Shown piece by piece: positions 10,124-54,528 of a DNA stretch of 64,000 nt; position 1 is the first letter of the stretch; every line of letters begins with the position of its first letter. The notes below the pieces were generated by a model, which was not told the DNA's origin, searched no databases, and was given only the letters and a program-made list of their open reading frames with translations. The DNA lies in assembly GCA_951213105.1 (NCBI GenBank), contig OX578146.1, forward strand, positions 111,826,927 through 111,890,926, in the 5' to 3' direction. The stretch comes from Amaurobius ferox. Lineage: Eukaryota; Arthropoda; Arachnida; Araneae; Amaurobiidae. A program made the position numbers and the translations under genes.

Positions 10124-10137
10124 AAGCAAAAAGGATG

Positions 10138-10339
10138 TTGTTGTTGTTGAGACCCAAACCGTCCGACCTACCAGAAAGGTGTAAGGTAACCGTCTGGACC
10201 GCCAGAAAGTGCCACCCAGTTTAAACCGGAACCCAGTGGGGGAGGCATCCACAGGGACCGTACCCTCCTTCCCCTACCACTAACCTCTCGGAAGGACTTA
10301 CGGACCCACATGTTTAACGTGATCGTACTCCGCATACGT
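10138..10339 (-). mobile_element. SINE, 5'-truncated, 14 bp target duplication
   Basis: On the reverse strand this is the SINE body seen at 13651-13871 and 52440-52729 (gatcacgttaaacatgtggg... through ggtctgggtctcaacaacaa), ending in a CAA-type tail. The direct repeat aagcaaaaaggatg flanks it exactly at 10124-10137 and 10340-10353, which marks target-primed reverse transcription. The tRNA/5S head is absent, so the copy is truncated just upstream of the body. It interrupts the reverse-transcriptase relic at 9690. Confidence 0.93.
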
Positions 10340-12382: not shown

Positions 12383-13470
12383 GACGACTATAAAATGCAG
12401 ACTACATATTTTCAGAGGACTATAAATGTCATTATAAGATCATAAAATGATTCTTTATAGCGAACATTTGATATATTTACATATAGTTACATATATTTTT
12501 GCACCTTTCTAATGGGCAATGTTGCAGAAAAGCTGTTAAAAAATATGATATTGATGACGAAACCAATAGATAAAAATCAATTCCCAGGTACAAATATGAA
12601 ATAAATTAATGAAACTCATAGCGCTATACGAAATATTGAGAAGCAAGGATAAAAGAGCGAAAATATCGAGACTTATTTTCAATAAAAGGATTATGATAAA
12701 AGAAAAAAAAAAGAACTTTCTAAAATTTTAAATTATATTCTAATAATCTATAGTCCAATACATAAATTTAAATTTTATACAAAAATCAACTTTGCGGTTT
12801 ACATATCTGCGACGGAAATCAAAGAGATACATGCATAAATACACAGATAGATAGTCTGACAAATTTTTTTTAGCTCATGCTAACAAAAATGACGAATTTC
12901 TGGTTTACTTCTCCCTAATAAGTATGATTTATTTTTTGAAACTTATATCTACAAAACCGCAATTAAGCCTTACAGATTTGATGTTAAACATTTTATGCTA
13001 AAGATTTGATGCTGCATTTAAAATAGCATTAAAAATGTGTGTGTATGTGTACTTTAGTGTGAAAGAAAAAATATATTTGCTTCTTGTAAAATGCCATGTG
13101 TTGTTCTTCATTCACAATGTACTTTCAGTGAAATCGAAACTGCAATGCAAATAAGAGGAAGTGCAAGTTATTGGCTGGGTAGTAAATAAGGCACGATATT
13201 CTAAATCAAGAGTTTCTAGATTCTTAAGGTAGGAGCGAAAGTGAAAAGTCAAAGAGATTTTGTTGATGTGTGAAGCTTCAACTTATAACATTTTAAGCAA
13301 CAAGATTGAGTATCCGTCCAAAAACTGATCAGGAAGACCAAAATCGATTTGCATTCTTATACAAAATAGCGTATCAAGAAACTGGCAGTTTCTTATGGCT
13401 TTTCAGTTCGCCAAATTAACCAAGAATTAAATAAGTCTGTACAGCAGAATCAATAATAAACTAGTTCACA
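12383..13470. other. Unassigned AT-rich DNA
   Basis: I see no gene, no TIR pair and no clear repeat. A small dyad (aaactggcagttt) lies near 13379-13391. Confidence 0.5.
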
Positions 13471-13483
13471 ACGTAAAATACAA

Positions 13484-13600
13484 GCCAACGGCCCTACCGT
13501 ACTGAAAACACCGGATCTCGTTAGATCACCGAAGTCAGGCAGCATCGGGTGCGGTTAGTACTTGGGTGGGTGACCACCTGGGAACACCGCGTGCTGTTGG
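13484..13600 (+). other. 5S rRNA-derived SINE head (not a functional rRNA gene)
   Basis: About 117 bp resembles arthropod 5S rRNA over its whole length: gccaacggcc start, gaaaacaccgg, gttagatcacc, ggttagtacttgggtgggtgacc, ctgggaacaccgcgtgctgttgg end. I classify it as SINE-derived because transcription would run straight into the SINE body, no T-run terminator follows, and the same fusion recurs at 13885. Confidence 0.9.
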
Positions 13601-13871
13601 AACATTTCGGACGCGGTAGCTCAGTGGTTTGCGCGCTGGATTTGCACGCTGCCACAACTGCCGCCGTGTTCATACTGAGTACGATCACGTTAAACATGTG
13701 GGTCCGTAAGTCCTTCCGAGAGGTTGGTGGTAGGGGAAGGAGGGTACGGTCCCTGTGGATGTCTCCCCCACTGGGTTTCGGTCTAAATTGGGTGGCACTT
13801 CCCGGCCGTCCAAACGGTTACCTTACACCTTTCTGGTAGGTCGGATGGTCTGGGTCTTAACAACAACAACA
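13484..13871 (+). mobile_element. 5S rRNA/tRNA chimeric SINE, copy 1 of tandem pair
   Basis: The first 117 bp are a near-complete 5S rRNA-like sequence including the internal promoter region (gaagtcaggcagcatcggg; gggtgggtgaccacctggga). Next comes a tRNA-like segment with a good A box (tagctcagtgg, 13617-13627) but no B box, then the SINE body and an (AAC)n tail. The target sequence acgtaaaatacaa sits immediately before it (13471-13483) and a one-base variant (acgtaaaatgcaa) immediately after (13872-13884). The 5S and tRNA heads would both recruit TFIIIC/Pol III if functional. It has no coding capacity; mobilisation must come from a LINE, plausibly one with a matching CAA tail such as that at 49508. 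Confidence 0.93.
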
Positions 13872-13884
13872 ACGTAAAATGCAA

Positions 13885-14269
13885 GCCAACGGCCCTACCG
13901 TGCTGAAAACACCGGTTCTCGTTAGATCACTGAAGTCAAGCAGCATCGGGCACAGTTAGTACTTGGGTGGGTGACCACCTGGGAACACCGCGTGCTGTTG
14001 GCACTTTTCAGCCGCGGTAGCCCGGTGGTTTGCACGCTGGATTTGCACGCTGCCACAACAGCCGCCGTGTTCATGCGGAGTACGATCACGTTAAACATGT
14101 GGGTCCGTAAGTCCTTCCGAGAGGTTGGTAATAGGGGAAGGCGGGTATGGTCCCTGTGGATGCCTCCCCCACTGGGTTCTAGTCTAAATTGGGTGGCACT
14201 TCCCGGCCGTCCAAACAGTTACCTTACACCTTTCTGGTAGGTCGGACGGTCTGGGTCTCAACAACAACA
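13885..14269 (+). mobile_element. 5S rRNA/tRNA chimeric SINE, copy 2 of tandem pair
   Basis: It has the same structure as the preceding copy. The 5S-like module (13885-14001) is slightly closer to a canonical 5S (cggttctcgttagatcac, gaagtcaagcagcatcggg). The tRNA-like A box is altered (tagcccggtgg), body and CAA tail follow, and a third copy of the target (acgtaaaatacaa, 14270-14282) closes the array. Two SINEs therefore share one target sequence present three times. Confidence 0.93.
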
Positions 14270-14282
14270 ACGTAAAATACAA

Positions 14283-30882: not shown

Positions 30883-32394
30883 CTGACTTCCAAAAGTTAA
30901 GCACGCAATGCAAATTTTCATTTTTCGAAAGCGTATTTGAATTTGAGTGGCTGAAAATCGCTGCGGATGTAGATTGCAGTATGCAAACATCCCATGTTAC
31001 AGCCAATCACGATTGACTGTCCGGATATATGATAATTAGACAGTCGTTGAAGACGCCAGCATTCTGAAGGGTTTGGGGAGGTGCATTTAAATGCTGATAC
31101 GAAGTGTTTATAACTTTTGTAGGATTAATTTTTTGTGATATTCGTGCTGCTATGGCTGAAAAAAGACGAATGACAAATAGTGAGGTGCTGTCGGATGCAT
31201 TGAAGCAGGACAGTCAATCAAAGATGTTGCTATTTTCTTTTGCGTTGATCATTCAGTAATTTCTCGATTATGGAAGGAATTCCAAACAATTTAAACAGTT
31301 GTCCGGATGCCTGTTCCCGGTCGTCCAAGGGTTACTACTCCTCTGGTGATCGGTATATTGCTAGTAGCCAAGTGGAATCGACGACCGACCTCCACAACTG
31401 TTACATCCATGGTTGCACTTGGTAAGACAATATCTGCCAGTACTGCGCGCCGAAAGCTCCAAGTAAAGGGACTGTACGCCCGAGTACCACGTTTTTGTGT
31501 TCCACTAACCGTCCAAGCCAGAGGGGAAAGATTAAAGTGGTGTCGTCAACGTGTCAATTGGACTGTCTCAGATTGGTGCCACGTCCTGTTGACGGACGAG
31601 TCCAGATTTGTCCTGGAATCAGATGATAAGCGTGTAAGGATCTGGAGAGAACAAGGCACACGTAATCAGGCCAAGAACATAATCGAACATCACGCATTCA
31701 AAGGTGACAGCGTCATGGTGTGGGCTGGAATTTCAATGGGATATCACACAGAGTTGCACATTTTTAAAGGCGGTTCTGTGACTGCTGCGCAGAATCGGTA
31801 TGAAGTCCTAGACCCCATTGCGAGACTATATTCTTCAGCAGTTGGTCCTGCTTTCCTCCTTTTGGACGATAATGCCCGTCCCCATCAAGCTAACATCGCT
31901 GATGAATACCTGGAAATTAAGGACATTTCTCGTATGAAGTGGACGGCGTATTTCCCGGGCCTTAACCCCGTTGAAAGCCTTTGGGATGCCCTCGGGCGTG
32001 CTGTCTCTGCACTTTTACCTCCTCCAGCCAGTCTCAGAGAGTTGGAGACTGTCTTATTGGAGGAATGGCCATTGCTCGCAACTACGATGGTTGATCGCCT
32101 CATTGAAAGCATGAAAAATCGTTGTAAAGTTTGTGTGAATGTCCGGGGTGATCACATGCCATATTAATATAAGTCTTATTTGGTTTGTTTGCATCATTTT
32201 GTTAATGACCCAAATATGACGTCATCATATAACTTAGGAAAAGTAAATATTTTTTTCATCTTTGTACATAATTCTTATTTTCTTTAATGCATAAACACAT
32301 TTGTTACCTTCATGTACAATTTTGAGTTAATCAAAGCTATACTTTTCCATTTTTGTTAATTTTACCGTCAGTACTTAACTTTTGGATGCCCGTG
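30883..32394 (+). mobile_element. Tc1-like DNA transposon
   Basis: The ends share inverted TCCAAAAGTTAAG cores (30893-30901 region on the left; reverse complement at 32373-32385 on the right) and are flanked by TA dinucleotides (30881-30882 and 32395-32396), as for Tc1/mariner. At 1.5 kb it has the usual length for one transposase gene between short TIRs. The outermost bases of the two TIRs have diverged. Confidence 0.85.
31152..32167 (+). pseudogene. Tc1-type transposase (DD34E), disabled near the N-terminus
   Basis: A 286-residue frame (ATG at 31307) carries the catalytic triad: TDESRF (Asp97), LLDDNARPH (Asp188) and NPVESLWD (Glu223), with exactly 34 residues between the last two. A GRPR motif at residues 5-8 sits where Tc1 proteins link their two helix-turn-helix domains. 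The frame stays homologous upstream (GCIEAGQSIKDVA, HSVISRLWKEFQ) but contains a TAA at 31292-31294. The likely original start (ATG 31152, MAEKRRMTNSE) is in another frame, implying a small indel near 31195. The catalytic domain looks intact; the DNA-binding part is broken, so the copy is probably dead. Either strand-internal starts or suppression would be needed for function. Confidence 0.88.
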
Positions 32395-37144: not shown

Positions 37145-40100
37145 TCAATTTAAATTTAAATTCTTTAAAGATCTCAAATCATATCTGTGTTTCGGCCTAA
37201 CCGGTGTTGGAAGAAGTACTGTGCGTGAACAATTTGTACTGCTTATATCGTCCCCTTGTGAATTTCCCGCTGATTCATCTTTCCCCTGAACGTTTTCCAT
37301 CTGTATACATCCCCCATCCACTTGTGTTGGTCCCTCTTGCGCATCTCGTTCTATTTCTCCCGCCTTTTCATTCGTGTTTGCTTCAATTCGTGTACCGTCC
37401 CCCTGTTCTGAAAGTTCCAAATTCTCGTGTGTTTCTAGCGTGCTATGTCTGCCTGATTCCCCCCCTGCTGAAAGAATGTTTGCGTTCGGAGAGTCTTTTG
37501 GAGGGATGATTGCATTCTCTCGTGCGCTCTGAGTTGTTTCGTTTTGTACTTGTGCGGTAACTGGTTTCGCGGATCCAAGAGTAAGAGTGTTTTCGTGCGT
37601 ATGGTGTGGTTTCGCGTTGTGTGCACTGGTTTGACAAGACTCTCTGTACTGTCCGTTTGCTATTTCCTCTTCCAACATGATAAACGGAATATTCTCATTT
37701 TGACCGTGGTCTTTCTTTAGTTCCGGTTTCGGTTCAGAGTTTTGTGCGTTTTTAGGAGTGGGGAGAAGAGGTGACTTGTATTTGTTTATGTAGGGCATTT
37801 TTAGATGTGGCTTGCGGTCGGGAAGAGTCCTTAATCTATTTATGTGGGCTTTTATGATTTTAGAATTTGGTTTGTCACACAGTTTTATTTCATATATAAA
37901 TCTATTTATTCTATTAATTACTCGATAAGGTCCCGTGTGGTTCCCCTTTTTATACCGATTATTATTGTTTTCCATGAACACCCTTGACCCGATTTCCAAA
38001 TCCCTGAATTTAGCTCTTTGGAGTTGTTGACTTTCTTGGCGTTCTTTCGCGAGAATTAAATTTTTATTTGCCTCCTTAAATGCGTTATTCATCACTGTTA
38101 TTTTTTTTGATATATAATCCTGATATGTTGTTTCTGTATTATTTTCTGTTACATTAGTTTCAAAAAAAGTTGGAAGGTCTCTTCCAAAAAAAAGAAAGTT
38201 TGGTGTTTCTTTGGTGCTTGAATGTACCGTCGCGTTGTACACAGCTACGTGGCATTGTACTGCAGTATCCCAGTATGGCGAATTCTCCGCTAATGTCGCT
38301 AAGGTGTGTTTCAATTGTTTGTTAGTAACCTCCACTATACCGTTAACCCATGGCGAACGTACCGATGCTATTCTGGCAACTATTCCGAGTTTCTCTGTCA
38401 TAATTTGATGTATATTAGATGTAAATTGAGAGCCTGCGTCCGATAACACTGTCTTAGGACATCCCCAATTCATAAAGTAATTTAAGAGTCTATCAGCAAC
38501 CGTAGTGGCCGTTATATCCGGGATAGGAAACATTTGTATATGTTTGGAGAAGTGGTCTACCACCGATAACACATATTTATTATTTGAAGTGCTAGTTTGA
38601 AACGGTCCGCAAATGTCTGTCGACAAAATTTGCACGGGCCCATCAGGTATAGGATTTCTTCCCAGGGGAACGGGCTGATTTTTTCCCTTTTTCTTTCTAC
38701 ACTGTTCGCAAGATGTAATAAAATTTTGTGTGTCACTGTACATACCCGTCCAAAAATATCTGTCCGATAAAAGTTTATAAGTTTTATCGATCCCTGCATG
38801 TGTTACATGTGTAATCGCTAAAATTTCTTTCTGTAAATTTCTGGGTATAACTATAGTTTTGTTCAAATTGTCTCTCCAAGGTCTGTCCTTCCAGTTTCCT
38901 ACGTGCATTAATAAATTAGTTTCCTCGTCAATATATAATGTGTCATAATGTTTACCCTCTTTAAAATTCCGGTTTTGTAAATTTTCTCTGATTATTTTTA
39001 ATTTTGGATCTTTAATTTGTTCCTCTAAAATTCTATCTAATGCCGGGATTTCTGTTATTGTGTTTATCTGTGCAATATAGACACTATCCTCATTCACATA
39101 TCCATTTCTTTTCACCGTGTTTTCTCCCTTAATTTGTTCTATCAGGTTAATTTCTCCCCTTGGATTCTCAATGTTTTGTTTTCCCTCATTCTGCTCTGTT
39201 TGTTTATTTTCAAAATCATCTCTACTTAAAAAATCCGCTAATAAATTATCTTTACCCGGGACGTGAATAAATTCATAATCATATTCAGATATCTCTAAAA
39301 GCCACCTCTGTAATACGCTGGGTGGGTTTTGTATTTTTAAATGCTGTCCCAAAGGTAAATGGTCAGAAAGCACAAAAAACTTTCGTCCGAAAAGAAAATT
39401 CCTAAAAAATTTCATTCCCTGATGCATAGCAAGTAATTCAATTTTCATGGCCGGGTATTTTTGCTCCTGTATCGATAATTTCCTGCTAAAATATGCAATC
39501 GGTTTTAAAATTCCCTCTCTGTATTGTAAAAGAGCGCCTCCTATGGACTGAATGCTGCCATCGATATTCAGATAAAAGTCTTTGTCAAAATCTGGCTGTA
39601 TAAGTAATGGTTTCTTGAAAAAACATTCTTGGAGTTCCTGGAATGCCTCCTCACATTTATTATCCCATTTAAATTTATTATCCTTTCTTGTTAAGTCTGA
39701 TAAAACCGCGGTTAATTGAGCATAATTTTTTATTGAATTTCTGTAAAAATTACAAATGCCTAAAAATCTTTTTAATTTTCTTAATGTTTTTGGTACTGGA
39801 AAAGAAGTGATTTTGTTTATATTTTCATCTGTTGGTGTAATGCCTTTTTGACTAATTTCAAATCCTAAATATGCTACTTTTTCTACAAAAAATTTACATT
39901 TGCTGGGTGTCAGAGTTAGGTTGTATTTTCTTAATTTATCGAATACTAATTTTAATTTATGTATTAATTCTGAATAAGAGTTAGCCGGGATTATTATGTC
40001 GTCGATGTAAGCTTGTATGTTTTCCTCTCTTAAGTCCGCTAAAATGGTGTCCATAACCTGTTGAAAAATTGGAGCGGAGCTTACATGTCCAAAAACGAGT

Positions 40101-41599
40101 CTTTCAAATTGGTAGTTGCCATAGGGCGTTGTAAAAGCAAATAATTCTTTTGTGTCTTCAGGTAAAACCAATTGGTTGAATGCACTATGAAAATCCAGTT
40201 TCGAATAGTATCTATGTCCGGCTAATTTAGTTATAATTTCATTTACACGGGGAATTTTGTAAGGAAAAAGAGTGGATATGTTATTAATTAATCTCAGATC
40301 TAAACATAAACGGTACTCTCCACTTGTTTTACGCACTAAAATCATCGGCGATGCAAAATTTGATTTTGTTCTGGCAATTATCCCTGCTTCTTCTAACTCT
40401 TTTAATTGATTTTTTGCGGTATCCTGCAGTGCGTACGGAACGTCGTATGGCCTGGAACGTATTGCGTGGTCATGTGCAAGCTTTATCACCGGTTTTACGA
40501 TGTCCGTCGCTCCTAAAGTTTTTAATGATTTTGAAAAAACGTCCGAATATTGCATTACAAATTTGAGGAAATCTTGTTTAATGTTTGGGTCCATGTGGTC
40601 AGTATTAAAATCTTCTGTTTTCAAATCTTTTTTTCTTTCTTCAATTATCTCCGGTTTAGCCTGTATTAAATTTATCATCTCTTCGTATTTATGTGTCCGT
40701 TCACTAATTTCTGGTTCTTTAATGTCCTGTTGTTGTATCGTAAAATCTGTCGTAATGTTTCCTAAAGCCATGTTTTTATTTAATGTAATTGTCGCATTCG
40801 TGTTATTCTGAACTTCAATTTTAATTTTGTTCTCATTCATGTGGTGTATTCCATAATTCATTACAATGTATGATTTTTCTTTGGGTTCGAACAAAACCTC
40901 TGTTCCATTTTCTAGACTTTCCTCACTATATACTACAACATTCTCCCTCGAATTCGGTTTGATTTCTACTTTTCTTAAAATTTTGGCTAGATTCGGTCTT
41001 TCCTGTATTATCTCATTTATTTGTCTATCAATTTGCCTATCAGAATTTAAAATTATTTCTATGTCGCCCATCTTCAGAATGTTCTTTTGTGTATTCAAAA
41101 TGGCTTGATTTTTCTGTAAAAAGTCAAAACCCAATACTCCCTTAAATTTTTGTGTAAATCTTGCTGTTGTGACAAAAAAAATATGTTTGAACTGTTTTCC
41201 CTGAATTTTAAATGGAATTTCCACAGTCTTTATATATTCAATACTATGTCCTGTTAAAGTTGATATTGTAACACTCCTTGACACATATTTAATTTTGACA
41301 TTATCTTTAATTTTATTGAACAATTCTAATGATAATACACTAACGCTCGCTCCAGAGTCTATCATGAGTTCGCTTTGTATATTTTTAAATTGAGCTATTA
41401 TTGTTGGCAATTCTGTTTTTTCAATTTGTTCTCCTACAGATGCAATCGTTTCCTCATGTTTTTCAGTACTTTCATCGTTATGTATCTCCAATTTCTTATT
41501 TTCTGTTTGTACAGGAATTTCAATTTTTCTCGGGAACTTTACCCTGTAATTTTTCTCTCTTTGTAAGTTATTATTTAAAGCTCCCACAATTAGTTTAAA
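37145..41599 (-). CDS. pol: Pol polyprotein: protease-RT-RNase H-integrase (Ty3/Gypsy)
   Basis: Makes the replication enzymes. The frame opens at 41599, right at the frameshift heptamer, and has no ATG start; it is read as a Gag-Pol fusion. Counting from the GTG codon at 41587: aspartic protease DSGA at 77-80 with a GFDFL flap-end motif near 153. Reverse transcriptase spans about 405-580 with catalytic YIDD at 527-530. RNase H has Asp675 (IDGS), Glu717 (IELLAM) and Asp742 (SDH). The integrase zinc finger is H927/H930/C960/C963; the first two His are only two residues apart, tighter than usual. The integrase catalytic Asp991, Asp1050 and Glu1086 have the expected 35-residue spacing. A GPY/F motif (TGPYRV) lies near 1218. 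A ~240-residue polar tail ends in HRYDLRSL. No stop or frameshift interrupts it. Confidence 0.97.
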   Translation of the reverse strand, partial: FKLIVGALNNNLQREKNYRVKFPRKIEIPVQTENKKLEIHNDESTEKHEETIASVGEQIEKTELPTIIAQFKNIQSELMIDSGASVSVLSLELFNKIKDNVKIKYVSRSVTISTLTGHSIEYIKTVEIPFKIQGKQFKHIFFVTTARFTQKFKGVLGFDFLQKNQAILNTQKNILKMGDIEIILNSDRQIDRQINEIIQERPNLAKILRKVEIKPNSRENVVVYSEESLENGTEVLFEPKEKSYIVMNYGIHHMNENKIKIEVQNNTNATITLNKNMALGNITTDFTIQQQDIKEPEISERTHKYEEMINLIQAKPEIIEERKKDLKTEDFNTDHMDPNIKQDFLKFVMQYSDVFSKSLKTLGATDIVKPVIKLAHDHAIRSRPYDVPYALQDTAKNQLKELEEAGIIARTKSNFASPMILVRKTSGEYRLCLDLRLINNISTLFPYKIPRVNEIITKLAGHRYYSKLDFHSAFNQLVLPEDTKELFAFTTPYGNYQFERLVFGHVSSAPIFQQVMDTILADLREENIQAYIDDIIIPANSYSELIHKLKLVFDKLRKYNLTLTPSKCKFFVEKVAYLGFEISQKGITPTDENINKITSFPVPKTLRKLKRFLGICNFYRNSIKNYAQLTAVLSDLTRKDNKFKWDNKCEEAFQELQECFFKKPLLIQPDFDKDFYLNIDGSIQSIGGALLQYREGILKPIAYFSRKLSIQEQKYPAMKIELLAMHQGMKFFRNFLFGRKFFVLSDHLPLGQHLKIQNPPSVLQRWLLEISEYDYEFIHVPGKDNLLADFLSRDDFENKQTEQNEGKQNIENPRGEINLIEQIKGENTVKRNGYVNEDSVYIAQINTITEIPALDRILEEQIKDPKLKIIRENLQNRNFKEGKHYDTLYIDEETNLLMHVGNWKDRPWRDNLNKTIVIPRNLQKEILAITHVTHAGIDKTYKLLSDRYFWTGMYSDTQNFITSCEQCRKKKGKNQPVPLGRNPIPDGPVQILSTDICGPFQTSTSNNKYVLSVVDHFSKHIQMFPIPDITATTVADRLLNYFMNWGCPKTVLSDAGSQFTSNIHQIMTEKLGIVARIASVRSPWVNGIVEVTNKQLKHTLATLAENSPYWDTAVQCHVAVYNATVHSSTKETPNFLFFGRDLPTFFETNVTENNTETTYQDYISKKITVMNNAFKEANKNLILAKERQESQQLQRAKFRDLEIGSRVFMENNNNRYKKGNHTGPYRVINRINRFIYEIKLCDKPNSKIIKAHINRLRTLPDRKPHLKMPYINKYKSPLLPTPKNAQNSEPKPELKKDHGQNENIPFIMLEEEIANGQYRESCQTSAHNAKPHHTHENTLTLGSAKPVTAQVQNETTQSARENAIIPPKDSPNANILSAGGESGRHSTLETHENLELSEQGDGTRIEANTNEKAGEIERDAQEGPTQVDGGCIQMENVQGKDESAGNSQGDDISSTNCSRTVLLPTPVRPKHRYDLRSLKNLNLN

Positions 41600-42747
41600 T
41601 TATCTCTTCTATTAGGGAAATTTCTGTATTCAAATCTTGTATTCATCTCTCTCCCATTGTTTCTTTGCCCGCCCGATTCTCTGATTCTGTTTTGGTTTGA
41701 CTCGTCCCTATTATATCGTTGTTCCCTAGAAAATCTACTTTGTGGAGGGGGTGCTGCATAGTAATTTCTGCTCTGTTGATAGTTTCCAAAGGCGTGGTTT
41801 GGCCTATAATCGTATGTGTCCGGCTGGGAGGAGTAAGTTCTGTGGTCATCATACGGCTGGGTTTGAAATGAGTGGGGAGGAGACTGTATTTGATTATGCC
41901 ACTGTGTCCTCGCGTTGTTTATGTTTTGACTCTGTGTTTGTTTAAAATGATCAGCTTTGTATATTCGGCATTCTCTCATGAAATGTCCCTGTTTATTACA
42001 GTAGTGACATGTTACGGGTTTTTTTGTTTGTGTCGTGGGAATTTGTACTTTTTCTTGGATTTTTAATGTGTTTATTTCTTGGGTAATTGAATTTAAAATA
42101 TGTGCGTTAAATTCCTGTTGCTCTTTGCGGAGCGTCTCAATTTCTTGTCTATATGTAGCACTATTTACATTTGCCGTTATCGCAGCTAAATTTGCCTGTT
42201 CCAAGTTTGTGGCTATTTTTACAGCTTCATCAAAATTTTGTGCATTAGTTTTTATTATTTCTTTCTGGAATTCAGGTGTTACCGCCTCTAAGAATTTACT
42301 TAACCTTAATTTATCCATAAGCTGTTGTGTCGCTTCACTGTGCTCTGTGTCGCCAATATAATTTAAAGTTAGTGTTGTTATTCTGTGCGCCAGCTGCTTA
42401 ATCGTTTCTCCCTGTGTCTGTTTTGCGGTCGTGAAAAGGATCTGATTTGTTGTAATGTTCGGTTTTTCTGTAAAGAACTCTAATAACCTATCCCTAAATT
42501 TTTCGAAAGATGTTTCCCTTCTTAATTCTTGTGACCCTATATAAAATTTTCTTGCATTCCCTCTTAACCGCGATTTCACAATTGCTAACTTTTTCTCCTC
42601 TGACCAATCCCCCAAGCTGCTTAAAGATTTGATCTGGTCAAAAAAAATTTCTACATCATTCTCTATGCCATTGCATTCCCCTAATAGGTGTATAAGTCCT
42701 GGTAACCTGCCCCTCGTTGCTGGATGATTTTCTCCGCTTTCCGTCAT
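41590..42747 (-). CDS. gag: Gag protein with one CCHC zinc knuckle (Ty3/Gypsy)
   Basis: A 385-residue protein from the ATG at 42747; an open GTG four codons upstream is not needed. The first ~190 residues have the helical Gag/capsid pattern (FFDQIKSLSSLGDWSEEKK, ARKFYIGS, FRDRLLEFF, TTLTLNYIG). A coiled-coil-like stretch (EIETLRKEQQEFNAHILNS) follows, then a C-x2-C-x4-H-x4-C knuckle at about residues 247-260 (CHYCNKQGHFMREC) for RNA binding. The C-terminus is rich in Asn, Gln, Arg, Tyr and Ser. It forms the particle that packages element RNA. The TAA stop (41592-41590) directly follows the frameshift heptamer, linking it to pol. Confidence 0.95.
   Translation of the reverse strand: MTESGENHPATRGRLPGLIHLLGECNGIENDVEIFFDQIKSLSSLGDWSEEKKLAIVKSRLRGNARKFYIGSQELRRETSFEKFRDRLLEFFTEKPNITTNQILFTTAKQTQGETIKQLAHRITTLTLNYIGDTEHSEATQQLMDKLRLSKFLEAVTPEFQKEIIKTNAQNFDEAVKIATNLEQANLAAITANVNSATYRQEIETLRKEQQEFNAHILNSITQEINTLKIQEKVQIPTTQTKKPVTCHYCNKQGHFMRECRIYKADHFKQTQSQNINNARTQWHNQIQSPPHSFQTQPYDDHRTYSSQPDTYDYRPNHAFGNYQQSRNYYAAPPPQSRFSREQRYNRDESNQNRIRESGGQRNNGREMNTRFEYRNFPNRRDNLN
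41593..41599 (-). promoter_or_regulatory. -1 ribosomal frameshift site U UUA AAC
   Basis: On the minus strand the gag codons read AAT TTA AAC TAA. TTTAAAC is a canonical X XXY YYZ slippery heptamer in the gag frame, immediately followed by the gag stop. Slipping back one base enters the pol frame, which opens exactly here because a TAA in that frame ends at 41600. No stimulatory pseudoknot was verified. Confidence 0.93.
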
Positions 42748-43230
42748 TCTAAATTTCACTTTCTCGCAAAAATTCTATATCTAAAATTATCTCCTGTTTT
42801 TACACCTCAAAATGTTCCCCCAAAATATTTAAATACAATATCACATAAATTCAAAAACATAATTCTAATCATTTCACTATCTACGCATGCAAATACTTCA
42901 ATCCTCATAATTAACTCCTCAAATATTACACAAATATTTATACAATTCAAAAATTTCTTAAAAGCTTCAAGTTCCCTAATAATTATATTTTCACATACAA
43001 TATGGCATGTCTCATTAAGAACACATAATGATTCACTATTTGCTTGCTTCTCATACTGTGAAATAAATTTTCTTAAATTTACCTATATTTATTTTAATTT
43101 TAAAATTCTTTCTTTAATTTAATCCTTATTTTACACACAAAAAAATTTTTTTATTCAATCTTTTCATTTCTCATTAATTCCAAATATATTTATTCTCTTC
43201 ATTAAAATTTAAATTCTGGCATATAACTGG

Positions 43231-49217: not shown

Positions 49218-49507
49218 TATAATACTTGTTGTATATCATAAAAGTGTTCACGTACGCAACAAAAAAAATGCTTCTGTATTAAAAAAAAGTACAATAAGAT
49301 TGTATCTTGTGCTTTTTTTATAATACTTGTTGTATATCATAAAAGTGTTCACGTACGCAACAAAAAAAATGCTTCTGTATTAAAAAAAAGTACAATAAGA
49401 TTGTATCTTGTGCTTTTTTTATAATACTTGTTGTATATCATAAAAGTGTTCACGTACGCAACAAAAAAAATGCTTCTGTATTAAAAAAAAAGTACAATAA
49501 GATTGTA
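49218..49507. repeat. 101 bp tandem repeat, nearly three units
   Basis: Units start at 49218, 49319 and 49420 (tataatacttgttgtatatc...). They are almost identical apart from one extra A in the third. The third unit is cut at 49507 by the LINE insertion. Confidence 0.95.
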
Positions 49508-51281
49508 TCAGAGTAAAATTTAACAAGACTTTTTCTGACCGTGTCGAGCTTGGACAGGGCGTCCCTCAGGGTTAACTGTCCTCAGTCCAATGCTTTTCTC
49601 TCTTTATTTAGCAGGCATAGAGAAATTACCTCCCATTGGGGTGGGAATTGGCTTGTTTGCAGACGACATCATTCTCTGGTGCTCCGGCAACAATTTAATT
49701 GAAATGGAGAAGAATCTTAACAACACTCTTTCTGCATTCTCGAACTTTCCTTTGGAATCTAAACTCTTCTTCAACCCTGCCAAGTCCATTGCCACTTTTT
49801 TTACCACTAACAAAAGATTATACAATTATCAACCAAAACTAAAAATGGATAATCAGGATCTTGCTTATGAGAAGCATCCTAAATATCTGGGATTTATTTT
49901 AGATCCTGAATGGACAAGCAACAAGCACATCGAACATATTGTCTTAAAGGGCAGAAAAAGATTAAATATTCTTAAATACATTGCAGGCAAAGACTGGGGA
50001 GCCAATGCTGTCACTCTGAGAAATACATATATGACATTCATTAGGCCCATCTTTGAGTATGGTTTCCCTGTTTATTGCTGTGCCTCAGCCACCAACTTGG
50101 ATAAATTGGAGAGGGTTCAACTCAGTGCTGCTAGAATTATCACTGGACTGAGGCGTAGCTTCCCTAGAGAAGTAGTTCTCTATGAGGCTAATTTGCAACC
50201 TCTTCAAACTAGAAGAAAGACCAACCTTGCCAAATATTTTAACAAACTTGCTAGCTATGGTCAGCATAATAAAACCTCCCTTTACCTGAACAACTGGAGC
50301 AACAATCAAAGACTTAAGAAAAACAGTCCTTTTAGTCATGCTGAACATCTGCGCCTGCCTTTTGATGAGATCGAGCCCCACTCCTTAAAATCTTGTCTGA
50401 GTCCCTCAGAGGGACTCCCCAGAGTTCATTTCCACTTTGGCTTTTCTACCCCGGTCACCAAGAGGGATTTTATCCCAGCTCATCTTAGACATTTGGCCTT
50501 AGAGATCATTAATAAGATCCCTGATAATGCCATTAAAATCTATACGAACGGCAGCAAACTGGAGGACCACGCTGTTAGTGGCATCTACATCGAGAAACCA
50601 AGGGATAAATTGTCCATCAGCCTCCGCAACCCCGATTCCCCATCAGTCTTCAAAAGCGAACTAATTGCAGTTGAGCAAGGTCTTGAAGTTGCTCTCAACG
50701 AAAACGACTTTGGGGGCCTCTGGATCCTTTCGGACAGCCGCAGCTCTCTTCAGCACCTCCATAATTGGATTGCAGTTGGAGATCAAACTAGTATTTCCAT
50801 CCTTCTCAAACTCAAGCTCATTTCAGAGTCCCATGATGTTCATTTTCAGTGGATTCCATCCCACGTTGACATTTACGGCAATGAGCTAGCGGCCAAGGAG
50901 GGTTGTGGCCACTCTGGTCCTTCCTCTTCGGCCCTTACTTTTTCTGAACATGAATCCATAGTCAATTCTGAAATTTCGAAGGAGTGGAGGGTTCCTCCCA
51001 GCCATCACTGGTATGCGGGCAGAGAGCCGGGCTCTTCGTTCGTTCTCAATTGTGACAGAGCCTCTCGAACTGCAATATCCAGATTAGCAAGCGGCCTCAC
51101 AAAAGGTCTCTCGTTGTTTGAGGGCAGGAAGATTTTTGCAGTCTGCTCTAAATGTCAAGCTCAGCAGGCTTCTCCTGAACACATCCTGGACTGTCTGGGA
51201 CTTTCCAGAGAGGACATATACTTTTCCCCCCTTCTGGTCCTCGACTTCCTTAGGGTCAACGGTCAAATGGATCTTGTCTGA
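49508..51281 (+). pseudogene. LINE ORF2 C-terminal half: RT (partial)-RNase H-zinc finger
   Basis: Reading begins with KTFSDRVELGQGVPQG (RT), then a TAA at 49573 and a frame change equal to a two-base insertion. It then continues from ATG 49590 for 563 residues. Visible in that part: catalytic FADD at 23-26, KYLGFILD at 98-105, and an RNase H domain at about 315-440. The RNase H has Glu357, Asp382 and SHV around His425, but the first catalytic Asp is Asn320 (YTNGS) and the final Asp is Ala435 (NELAAKEG). A C-x2-C-x8-H-x3-C finger lies at 519-535, followed by SPLLVLDFLRVNG at the C-terminus. Endonuclease and most of RT are absent; the copy cannot be active. Confidence 0.93.
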
Positions 51282-51320
51282 CTTCGTCAGACAGCCGGAG
51301 GATAAGCCACAACAACAACG
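49508..51320 (+). mobile_element. 5'-truncated non-LTR retrotransposon (I/Jockey-like) with 13 bp TSD
   Basis: The 1.8 kb insertion is flanked by the exact 13 bp repeat caataagattgta (49495-49507 and 51321-51333). It starts inside the reverse-transcriptase gene and ends shortly after the stop codon with a CAA-type tail (ccacaacaacaacg). Loss of the 5' part and a target duplication of this size are typical of target-primed reverse transcription. The tail resembles that of the SINEs in this window. Confidence 0.95.
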
Positions 51321-51333
51321 CAATAAGATTGTA

Positions 51334-51827
51334 CAATAGTAAAAGTACAATAATAAAAGAAGTACAAAAAGCTTGTGTGACCTACATTAAAAATTTTAAG
51401 TTTGTATCAAAGCTTAGAATCAAATGCATCAAAGAACATAGGTAACACAGTTTCTTTACTGCTTCAGCTCATTAGTATTCAAGAATGTTCTATTGAACTA
51501 CCTGTTTTGCTATATACTACAATTATGTACACGGATGTACACGTATACTTCTCGTCCAACCACTCAAATGGCGGCTGTAAACCCTACGGTCAGTTGAGTG
51601 GTCTAGATGTTCGAAGTATGCTTCTCGTGGCTCTGGGAACACGATTCCTAGTTTTAAGACTAGCTTCACTTAATGGGTTTGATAACTACGGACATAGCCA
51701 TTGTTGTCTCGTTCTGTCTGAGCCCATTCGTTAAACTTAAAGTCACCTACGGAGCCTGACTGACATTCTTGGTCACAACAAATGTTTGTAAAATTGCTAT
51801 ACATAGCAAATTTTCAAGGATTACCTG
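51334..51827. other. Unassigned DNA
   Basis: A moderately GC stretch (51530-51780) has an open frame of 110 codons with no recognisable motif and a near-direct repeat of 'tacttctcgt'. No gene called. Confidence 0.45.
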
Positions 51828-52114
51828 TTGTTGTTGAGACCCCGACCGTCCGACCTACCAAAAAGGTGTAAGGTAACAGTTTGGACGACCGGGAAATGCC
51901 ACCCAATTTAGACTAGAACCCAGTGGTGGCGGCATCCACAGGGACCGTACCTTCCTTCCCCTACCACCAACCTCTCAAAAGGACTTACGGACCCACATAT
52001 TTAACGTGATCGTGCTCCGCGTAAAGACGGCGGCAGTTTTGGCAGCGGAGTGAATCGAATCCGGGGCTATCGAATGCAATTCCCGCCCGCTAATCACTGG
52101 ACTACCGCACCCCG
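51828..52114 (-). mobile_element. tRNA-headed SINE, copy a of a three-SINE train
   Basis: On the minus strand: tRNA-like head (A box tagtccagtga, B box ggattcgattc), SINE body, CAA tail. Flanked by the target sequence: aaggattacctg on its left (decayed) and ttgaatgcctg (52115-52125) on its right. Confidence 0.9.
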
Positions 52115-52125
52115 TTGAATGCCTG

Positions 52126-52428
52126 TTGTTGTTGTTGTTGAGACCCAGACCGTCCGACCTACCAAAAAGGTGTAAGGGAACTGTTTGGACGACCGGAAAG
52201 TGCCACCCAATTTAGACCGGAACCCAGTGGGGGAGGCATCCACAGGGACCGTACCCTCCTTCCCCTACCACCAACCTCTCGGAAGGACTTACGGACCACA
52301 TGTTTAACGTGATCGTACTCTACATGAACACGGCGGCAGTTGTGGCAGCGTGCAAATCCAGCGCGCAAACCACCGGGCTACCACGCCCGAAATGTGCCAA
52401 CAGCACGCGGTGTTCCCAGGTGGTCCCG
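52126..52428 (-). mobile_element. 5S/tRNA chimeric SINE, 5'-truncated, copy b of the train
   Basis: The head carries only the last ~28 bases of the 5S-like module (gaccacctgggaacaccgcg, tgctgttgg), fused to the tRNA-like segment (tagcccggtgg) and body, as in the copies at 13484 and 13885. Flanked by ttgaatgcctg and ttgaatacctg (52429-52439). Confidence 0.9.
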
Positions 52429-52439
52429 TTGAATACCTG

Positions 52440-52729
52440 TTGTTGTTGTTGAGACCCAGACCGTCCGACCTACCAGAAAGGTGTAAGGTAACTGTTTGGA
52501 CGACCGGGAAGTGCCACCCCATTTAGACCGGAACCCAGTGGGGGAGGCATCCACAGGGACCGTACCCTCCTTCCCCTACCACCAACCTCTCGGAAGGACT
52601 TACGGACCCACATGTTTAACGTGATCGTACTCCGCGTGAACACGGCGGCAGTTTTGGCAGCGGCTGGAATCGAACCCGGGCCTACCGAGTGCAACTCCAG
52701 CGCGCTAACCAATGGGCTACCGCGCCCCG
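52440..52729 (-). mobile_element. tRNA-headed SINE, copy c of the train
   Basis: Best preserved tRNA head: A box tagcccattgg (52709-52719, minus strand) and B box ggttcgattcc (52666-52676), both close to Pol III consensus, then body and CAA tail. Flanked by ttgaatacctg on both sides (52429-52439, 52730-52740). Confidence 0.93.
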
Positions 52730-52740
52730 TTGAATACCTG

Positions 52741-53469: not shown

Positions 53470-53585
53470 TTCTTCTTCTTCGCCCAGACCGTTAGACCCA
53501 TCCGAAAGTGTAAGTTATCTATTTCGACGGCGGGGATATGTCATTCAATCTAGACCGGAATCCAGTGGGGGCGGCATCCACAGGT
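53470..53585 (-). repeat. Decayed SINE fragment cut by family A
   Basis: Reverse-strand SINE body remnants: cagaccgt, aaagtgtaag, tctagaccggaatccagtgg, ggcggcatccacagg. The sequence stops where family A starts at 53586 and does not resume afterwards. Confidence 0.75.
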
Positions 53586-54528
53586 GATGTGGGCAACACA
53601 TGACTTTCCTTATATAATGCAATGAATTTACTACTTTTACAATAAAAAATAGGGGGGTTTTATAGTAGATATTTATATTCTTTTCAAGATATTGAATTTT
53701 CGTCAATGAGTCATCATTTTCATTGATCTAGTGTCATTTTTATCCATTTGGCGAGATTTTCGTTAATTTGGCTTAAACAGTCAAAAAGACGTCAAGTTGG
53801 CGATATTCAGCCAAATTCGGCGCCAAAATCTCGCCAAGCGTTATGGACGGAGAAATAAGTTATTCTTATAGCGAATAAATAACTATTGGCGTTCAAATAC
53901 AAACGTATTACTCAAAGTATCTTTTCTCATGAATGAAACGTTCTAGATCCACGAGAATGATGTCACCAAATTTATCGCATGATATTACATATGAAAAGTG
54001 AACATGTTTCTCAACAGTTAATATATATTTTTTAATTTATAGGATTTTTTGATTAATTTATTTAAAACATGTGCAATATCTCGAGAACGGTTTATGCTAG
54101 CGTTCTAAAATTTATGCCAATCGTTTTCTAAGGAAAAATTACATAGGAAATGTCTATTTGCGTGACTTTATTAAAGGTTTTGATTTTTTGATGATTTTTT
54201 TCAAAATTTCACTCGAAAATTTAGGGGGGTTCTGAGCATCCAATTGAGAATAAAACAATAGGCTTCCGGTATTCATGGATTGTGATTTTTGTACCAAATT
54301 TTGTTCGAATCGCTTTATTTGTTCGTCAGTTATCGTCTCCACAGGCTCACTGACACACAGACACACACACACACACACACACACATACTTTCACACACAC
54401 ACACACATCACCTCAAAAATGTTTGATTCGTGATCAGGGATGCTTGAAACGTGCTCTCCGTGCTCGAATACGAATTTTCGACCCCGTCACAATACTTTCC
54501 TTATACATTATGTTTATAAGAAAAGTAA
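53586..54528 (+). repeat. Repeat family A copy
   Basis: Runs from tgatgtgggcaacacatgac to the terminal hairpin (actttccttatacat...tataagaaaagtaa), with the gccaaattcggcgccaaaat motif cluster near 53810 and a (CA)n tract at 54352-54410. The first TC of the usual start is missing. Confidence 0.85.

Follow-up and report, generated by a model that had tools for sequence, protein, structure and literature searches.

SINEs with a 5S rRNA-derived head, and chimeras of 5S and tRNA-derived SINEs, are known in vertebrates and moths (PMC3272025, PMC8010984, PMC6337102, PMC3747384, PMC10886601). In Helicoverpa armigera, HaSE3 has a 5S head, while its body and tail are those of a tRNA-headed SINE from that genome, for which its authors proposed a template switch between the SINE RNA and the 5S RNA; the tail, common to HaSE1, has TGA repeats, with an RTE partner (PMC3272025, PMC8010984). 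Other lepidopteran 5S-derived SINE3 elements are PxSE4, PxSE5, CsSE2, and LaSE2 (PMC3272025, PMC8010984). In vertebrates, AmnSINE1/DeuSINE elements have a 5S-tRNA chimeric design (PMC6337102, PMC3747384).

The SINE described here, from the spider Amaurobius ferox (GCA_951213105.1, an assembly of 3.56 Gb), resembles HaSE3 in having a 5S head joined to a tRNA-SINE of the same genome. Besides the host, a spider rather than a moth, the available parts of the HaSE3 description set the two apart by their tails, TGA repeats in HaSE3 and (CAA)n in the spider. These parts mention no tRNA remnant, whereas the spider SINE keeps half of the tRNA head behind the 5S, and the stacking of copies found in the spider is absent from them. 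From AmnSINE1/DeuSINE, as far as the available descriptions go, the spider SINE differs in ending in (CAA)n, and its 5S-tRNA design presumably has an independent origin. The first-pass annotation had proposed an arthropod case of this design; it is real in the spider but is not the first, since HaSE3 of the moth is earlier.

The window, that is, the whole stretch of DNA analysed, comprises 64,000 nucleotides of contig OX578146.1, and all coordinates below refer to it unless stated otherwise. Two direct SINE copies on the plus strand, U1 (13484-13871) and U2 (13885-14270), share one layout, in which a 5S rRNA module and, after 6 nt of spacer, a tRNA-like piece precede a body of about 200 nt and the (CAA)n tail. 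In U1, the 5S module (13484-13602; RF00001 1-120, 88.2 bits) is followed by the spacer CATTTC at the 5S/tRNA boundary (13603-13608), placed by alignment and found also in a second 5S-tRNA family, then by a tRNA-like piece with the A-box region and without 27 nt that include the B box (13609-13654, from the alignment with tRNA-only copies), and by the shared body and (CAA)n tail (13655-13871). The corresponding parts of U2 are the 5S module (13885-14003; RF00001 1-120, 97.5 bits), the spacer CTTTTC with the B-box-less tRNA-like piece (14004-14055, from the alignment), and the shared body and (CAA)n tail (14056-14270). Both copies start exactly at 5S position 1, and their 5S modules are the only matches in the window above the RF00001 gathering threshold (38), each covering the full model 1-120. 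The 5S-like part had been recognised at first pass as a nearly complete 117 bp; its presence in both copies stands, but it is complete, with 119 nt. The tRNA-like segment, body and CAA tail proposed to follow the 5S were confirmed by alignment in U1 and U2. The 15-nt target sequence (CAACGTAAAATRCAA) is present three times around the two copies, and the target-site duplication of the dimer, CAACGTAAAATACAA, lies on the 5' side at 13469-13483, with one change between U1 and U2 at 13870-13884, and on the 3' side at 14268-14282, all on the plus strand.

Further copies were found on the minus strand. A trimer is formed by T1 (52440-52728), a tRNA-only copy with the A-box region and the B box; M (52126-52427), a 5S-fused copy truncated in its 5S part and showing the same 5S-tRNA junction; and T3 (51826-52113), again tRNA-only. 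Divergence rises from 5' to 3' along this trimer, from 3 of 201 body positions changed in T1, the least diverged, through 6 of 200 in the middle copy M, to 17 of 201 in T3, the most diverged; the window dimer is neutral on order (6 and 7 changes of 201). The 12-nt target CAGGYATTCAAC is found around T1, M and T3 three times, plus one changed copy. The corresponding duplication CAGGTATTCAAC is at 52729-52740 (minus strand), again at 52428-52439 and, changed, at about 52114-52125 and 51818-51826. Two 5'-truncated copies complete the set: R (10136-10336, minus strand), with body and tail and the duplication ACATCCTTTTTGCTT at 10124 and 10340, and O (53481-53590, minus strand), an old body fragment with a GAA tail. 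M, R, and O were absent from the first-pass annotation. GAA repeats instead of (CAA)n were observed in O and at one locus outside the window (L054), perhaps belonging to another subfamily. Five alignment columns before the body split the three 5S-fused from the two tRNA-only window copies; columns 123, 124, 146, and 198 separate the versions without exception, and column 139 has one exception.

The chimera is a family of many copies. In the genome search with U2, the best 40 of 5902 first-look candidates were scored, and all 40, spread over many contigs, span the junction; each match begins at 5S position 1 or 3, runs to the tail, and is at least 95% identical. Since the scored candidates are those most like the query, the result shows many copies with the junction, not every copy. 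The junction had been set beforehand as the point on which the first-pass idea of a real 5S-tRNA chimeric SINE would be judged, and its presence in all 40 scored matches makes it a family feature rather than a chance neighbourhood. With a tRNA-only query we obtained 551 candidates, 40 of them scored, a count not strictly comparable with 5902 because the queries differ. In a consensus built from 98 full-length 5S-fused monomers, the 5S is still complete. The head derived from a Pol III small RNA, the target-site duplications and the many dispersed copies are those of a SINE, and the 5S-derived head with the whole 5S retained (RF00001 1-120 in U1 and U2) is that of SINE3; we take the places of boxes A, IE, and C of the 5S promoter to be within this retained 5S. 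A 5S module followed by a tRNA-derived segment, as in the AmnSINE1-like design, is present in both spider families. No relatives were found elsewhere with a 24-mer of the body in viral contigs or a 31-mer in genome contigs (0 matches). The 70 protein matches of a six-frame SINE query (E <= 0.01) were rejected as relatives, all 70 aligning only in the 5S part, and a protein query with the other frame of the SINE had no matches. By eye, one database protein (P0123) looks like the translation of a 5S followed by another tRNA-like SINE sequence, and may represent one more fusion of 5S and tRNA.

The first-pass annotation had also claimed that the tRNA-only version has both boxes and that the 5S-fused copies lost the B box. 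The loss is borne out: T1 has an exact B box (GGTTCGATTCC), the same 27 nt with this box are missing at the same point from all three 5S-fused window copies in the alignment with tRNA-only copies, and none of the 98 full-length 5S-fused monomers from the genome contains it. The A-box segment attributed to the 5S-fused copies holds in part, as the A-box region aligns but a strict A box (TRGYNNARNNGG) is found in 1 of the 98; monomers were scored against the general A-box and B-box consensuses. The tRNA match of T1 is weak (RF00005 18.8 bits, with a gathering threshold of 29), and ARAGORN found no tRNA in this tRNA-only copy. The consensus head of the tRNA version, aligned with a true tRNA-Glu of the same genome, reaches a score of 14.1, against 7.1 for the best of 500 shuffles. 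Judging from sequence, replacement of the B box by the internal promoter of the 5S would fit these data. A 5S head allows this loss without demanding it, since a second family keeps its B box beside the 5S.

This second 5S-tRNA family (L117:76-450 and L118; G000 C14:99239375 and C10:69236094) shares the same 125 nt, with a 5S that differs at 7 of 119 positions from the consensus of the first family. What follows is unlike the first family: the tRNA-like head is another one (RF00005 24.5 bits, below gathering), its B box is intact, and the body differs as well. Its 40 scored copies, the best 40 of 3934 candidates, are all at least 97% identical over at least 312 of 317 bases. Among 18 copies, 16 have a tail made of a G/A run, mostly A, and 10 have duplications scoring at least 10; no second copy was found in any of the 18 loci within 80-150 bp of flank. 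The different tails of the two 5S-headed families probably mean different LINE machineries. A tRNA-Glu-like origin of the second head was rejected (score 0.1, with shuffles up to 5.1).

A diverged 5S (90.2 bits) is also found 13 nt upstream of a tRNA-Glu(CTC) at L135:107-310 (G000 C1:86028756-86028959). The order there is 5S, CATTATACCCAAC, and an intact tRNA-Glu(CTC) gene (65.2 bits) with a T run, and the locus is possibly a 5S-tRNA gene pair. Yarrowia has dicistronic tRNA-5S genes, with the tRNA first and then the 5S; these resemble the spider arrangement in having both units in one direction, but the order is opposite, being 5S and then tRNA-Glu in L135. CATT directly after the 5S is common to the first family, the second family, and L135, and as sequence it would suit the capture of a 5S transcript with a short 3' trailer. 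With RF00001, the best 47 of 104121 first-look candidates were scored; none of the 8 loci fetched was a true 5S gene, 6 having the junction of the first family and 2 that of the second. A genome-wide search for an arthropod-type 5S core pattern returned one exact match, the diverged 5S beside tRNA-Glu.

Head-to-tail arrays are formed by site-specific or telomeric non-LTR elements such as R1/R2, Waldo, and HeT-A/TART. The spider stacks are similar, with repeated use of one target giving direct arrays, but those elements use one repeated target or the chromosome end, whereas each spider array lies on its own sequence, repeated at the joints. The dimer query produced 51 rows from the best 40 of 10627 candidates, of which 41 cover at least 696 of the 812 query bases, some overlapping at one locus; 40 regions were fetched, two of them covering one locus. 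From these regions and the chains of single-copy queries we took the 46 arrays with both ends inside the fetched stretch, most of which derive from one query, itself a dimer (best 40 of 10627 candidates). In 31 of the 46, the array's own target-site duplication (score of at least 8) is present at every joint, against 10 of 1840 in a swapped control that paired each 5' flank with joints from other arrays. The remaining 15 do not have it at every joint by this score, and some of them meet short extra fragments or damage. A whole-genome pattern scan found 719 exact joints (tail, 8-34 nt, 5S start) and 0 with the reversed pattern; among the matches listed, the linkers vary between loci, by eye.

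Single-copy queries gave chains by adjacency at 7 of 30 5S-version loci and 6 of 30 tRNA-version loci, the window being included in each. The strict duplication score was passed by 3 of 30 (window dimer, L091, L092) and 2 of 30 (L039, L045), respectively. The window trimer just misses this score at its oldest end, the repeats of L090 and L093 are visible by eye, the chains of L041 and L043 are not clean, and L102 was left out of strict scoring. This last locus has tandem partial tRNA-SINE units (mostly positions 6-184) without gap or target duplication, a SINE fragment on its way to becoming a satellite. At L022, L060, L068, and L090 the stacks have three to five copies, and L022 has the order AC, AG, AG with divergence increasing from 5' to 3'. 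We also observed, by eye, promoterless elements of about 60 bp corresponding to the SINE 3' hairpin, with target duplications and also stacked (L101, L008, L003, L002, L104, and others); perhaps these are what 5' truncation has left of SINE or partner-LINE copies.

The stacked copies are separate insertions, since neighbours differ as much as unlinked copies: the first and last full 5S monomers have a mean distance of 6.3% within the 27 arrays that contain at least two such monomers, and 6.1% between arrays (p = 0.31). Copies of the 5S and tRNA versions, and of subfamilies that differ in age, also occur together in arrays (L066, L078, L090, L092, L057). Divergence from the consensus, our proxy for age, is ordered along the stacks. 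Measured against a common consensus, the 27 arrays have their less diverged copy at the 5' end in 21 cases and the more diverged one there in 4, with 2 ties (p = 0.0008); with subfamily consensuses, the less diverged copy is at the 5' end in 25, with 1 reverse and 1 tie (p = 2.5e-5). The young subfamily B (21 sampled copies) is on average 0.7% from its own consensus, against 3.0-3.5% in the others, and is at the 5' end in all 14 arrays having B and non-B as first and last full members. Among 62 adjacent pairs with a minimum length of 100 nt, for which truncated copies also counted, the upstream member is less diverged in 52, with 8 reversed and 2 equal. B is the upstream partner of another type 23 times and the downstream partner once, at L025. 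In 36 dimers, no direction could be read from how similar successive duplications are (5'-middle better in 13, worse in 17, equal in 6).

For the target sites, 58 loci outside the window were fetched with single-copy queries, 47 of them with a central single full-length copy. Duplications scoring at least 9 are present in 39 of these 47, with a mode of 13-15 nt. We derived the target motif from 76 sites, namely 38 singles (score of at least 10) and the 5' edges of 38 arrays; the target edge is uncertain by a few bases wherever the target itself starts like the tail. On the left, T/C is found at -4 in 61 sites and at -3 in 63, and C at -1 in 54; on the right of the nick, A, C, and A are found in 67, 64, and 55 sites. 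The motif is approximately YYNC|ACA, with 5.5 bits in total. At least one extra base lies between the duplication and the 5S start in 16 of 19 scored 5S-version singles. These extra bases, observed in L080-L108 and in arrays, number one to four, often G, in 15 of the 19, and eleven in one more; perhaps they are untemplated additions by the reverse transcriptase.

We think it probable that this is a LINE-dependent SINE in which a tRNA-headed element gained a 5S and that re-cutting of its site stacks new copies upstream. A tRNA-headed SINE would have gained a complete 5S module at its 5' end, most likely when the reverse transcriptase, having copied the SINE RNA to its 5' end, went on at the 3' end of a 5S transcript; we infer this jump from the junction itself, made of the whole 5S, CATTT(C), and the start of the tRNA head. 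Pol III would then start from the internal promoter of the 5S, a use suggested by the full-length window copies, which start at 5S +1, and the B box would have been lost. The LINE enzyme would nick targets of the YYNC|ACA type and prime on (CAA)n. In target-primed reverse transcription, as established for L1, the nick in the bottom strand marks the left edge of the future duplication. At the 5' edge of the insertion the site would stay intact, with the first duplicate still adjoining the bases to the left of the nick, while at the 3' edge the left half of the site would be replaced by the tail. Because an intact nick site would be left only at the 5' edge, its re-cutting would place the next copy upstream of the older one, and repeated re-cutting would build head-to-tail stacks with the target duplication at the joints. 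We give about even chances to the broader idea that insertion never consumes the target, so that stacks would be ordered age records, and that the 5S is a portable promoter cassette in at least two unrelated SINE families.

Other explanations have to be weighed against the re-cutting of targets. A SINE inserted by chance beside a 5S pseudogene, the trivial source of the junction, has nothing in its favour beyond the single window locus, has practically no probability left, and is already refuted, as the same junction is in the 40 scored matches and in the third window copy M. Stacks could be produced at the DNA level, by unequal crossing-over or slippage between target-site duplications; the unit multiplied by such exchange would be precisely SINE plus duplication, a few neighbours are close (0.8% in L024, 1.1% in L028, 2.7% in L068), and at L102 seven gapless partial units 97-98% like the query are a true local amplification. 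Yet neighbours in general are as different as unlinked copies (6.3% and 6.1%), the arrays mix both versions and subfamilies of different age, and the close pairs of L024 and L028 belong to subfamily B, whose mean divergence is 0.7%. DNA duplication is largely refuted for the sampled arrays, and we hold it improbable as a general source. A single integration that writes several copies, with the reverse transcriptase jumping between SINE RNAs, could join different RNAs into mixed arrays, and the B/B pairs in L024 and L028 fit in age with one event. It predicts joints without target duplication, but 31 of the 46 arrays have one at every joint, and neighbours differ in divergence. This explanation is refuted for arrays with duplications between members and would stand for joints without one; overall it is very improbable.

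Some other retrotransposons tether upstream of Pol III genes, and the enzyme could be drawn to the 5' end of resident SINEs as Pol III genes, with no re-cutting at all. New copies landing upstream of Pol III-type heads agree with this tethering. It is made less likely by the promoterless fragments of about 60 bp, seen by eye to be stacked on the same duplication (L101, L008, L003), together with the second 5S-headed family, which has another tail and no second copy at 18 loci, and we regard it as unlikely. Finally, many copies share a short target motif, and some sites might be hit twice by chance. A rough estimate puts the expected reuse at about 3%, taking about 7.7 million YYNCACA motifs and 250,000 SINE pieces, the latter extrapolated from 12 found in 169 kb of flanking sequence. 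The strict stack counts (3/30 and 2/30) are two to three times this value and the loose chain counts (7/30 and 6/30) about seven times, in small numbers. Since fewer single-query chains pass the strict score than adjacency suggests, we weighted chance reuse up and re-cutting down. Chance reuse alone gives no divergence order; it would do so if only the 5' side of the site were open, but that amounts to the re-cutting idea. We consider chance reuse doubtful. The reuse above the estimate could come from unequal attractiveness of the sites, from help by resident copies or, in part, from frequent chance.

As for the enzyme, the window contains a 5'-truncated Jockey/BS-like LINE (49539-51319, plus strand) that is a candidate source. 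The best relatives of its reading frame (49539-51281) are in the spiders Parasteatoda, Trichonephila, and Araneus, with up to 73% identity. It ends in ACAACAACAAC 27 nt after the stop codon, with a hairpin preceding the end, and the SINE 3' end also folds into a hairpin. With tails removed, comparison of the LINE and SINE 3' ends gave no similarity above shuffled sequences (best score 20; shuffles with a mean of 18.2 and a maximum of 26). A 13-nt repeat flanks the LINE, which is weak evidence as it lies in a local satellite. This satellite, observed at 49292-49510 with a period of about 102 bp (CAATAAGATTGTA at 49292, 49393, and 49495), is where the LINE is inserted. Among the matches listed, 7 of 120 related proteins have NNN or QQQQ runs, just behind the LINE end in five (P0050, P0094, P0104, P0110, P0112) and elsewhere in P0023 and P0036; in our reading, the five look like a translated CAA tail. 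A Jockey-type LINE as partner of the SINE may be taken as a lead. Elsewhere in the window, long open frames at 37145-42774 resemble, by eye, gag and pol of a Gypsy LTR element, and at 31295-32167 a Tc1/mariner transposase.

Among the titles and abstract openings listed in searches of the openly licensed literature there was no spider 5S SINE and nothing on stacks jointed by target duplications, which is a weak absence given the limits of the search. As far as this literature goes, a spider family keeping half of the tRNA head is new among 5S/tRNA chimeras, and the second 5S family with its B box and the stacks ordered by divergence are new as well. Two unrelated SINE families with one 5S module suggest that such a promoter can be taken up and transferred as a unit, with the B box lost or kept. 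In SINE-based phylogeny, a site that receives more than one insertion usually counts as a rare nuisance. Here one genome has hundreds of exact joints (719 by one strict pattern), and divergence is ordered along the sampled stacks. Together these findings make target reuse by target-primed reverse transcription testable and may offer a built-in clock for SINE subfamilies: if the proposed mechanism is true, the position in a stack would give the relative age of each SINE subfamily.
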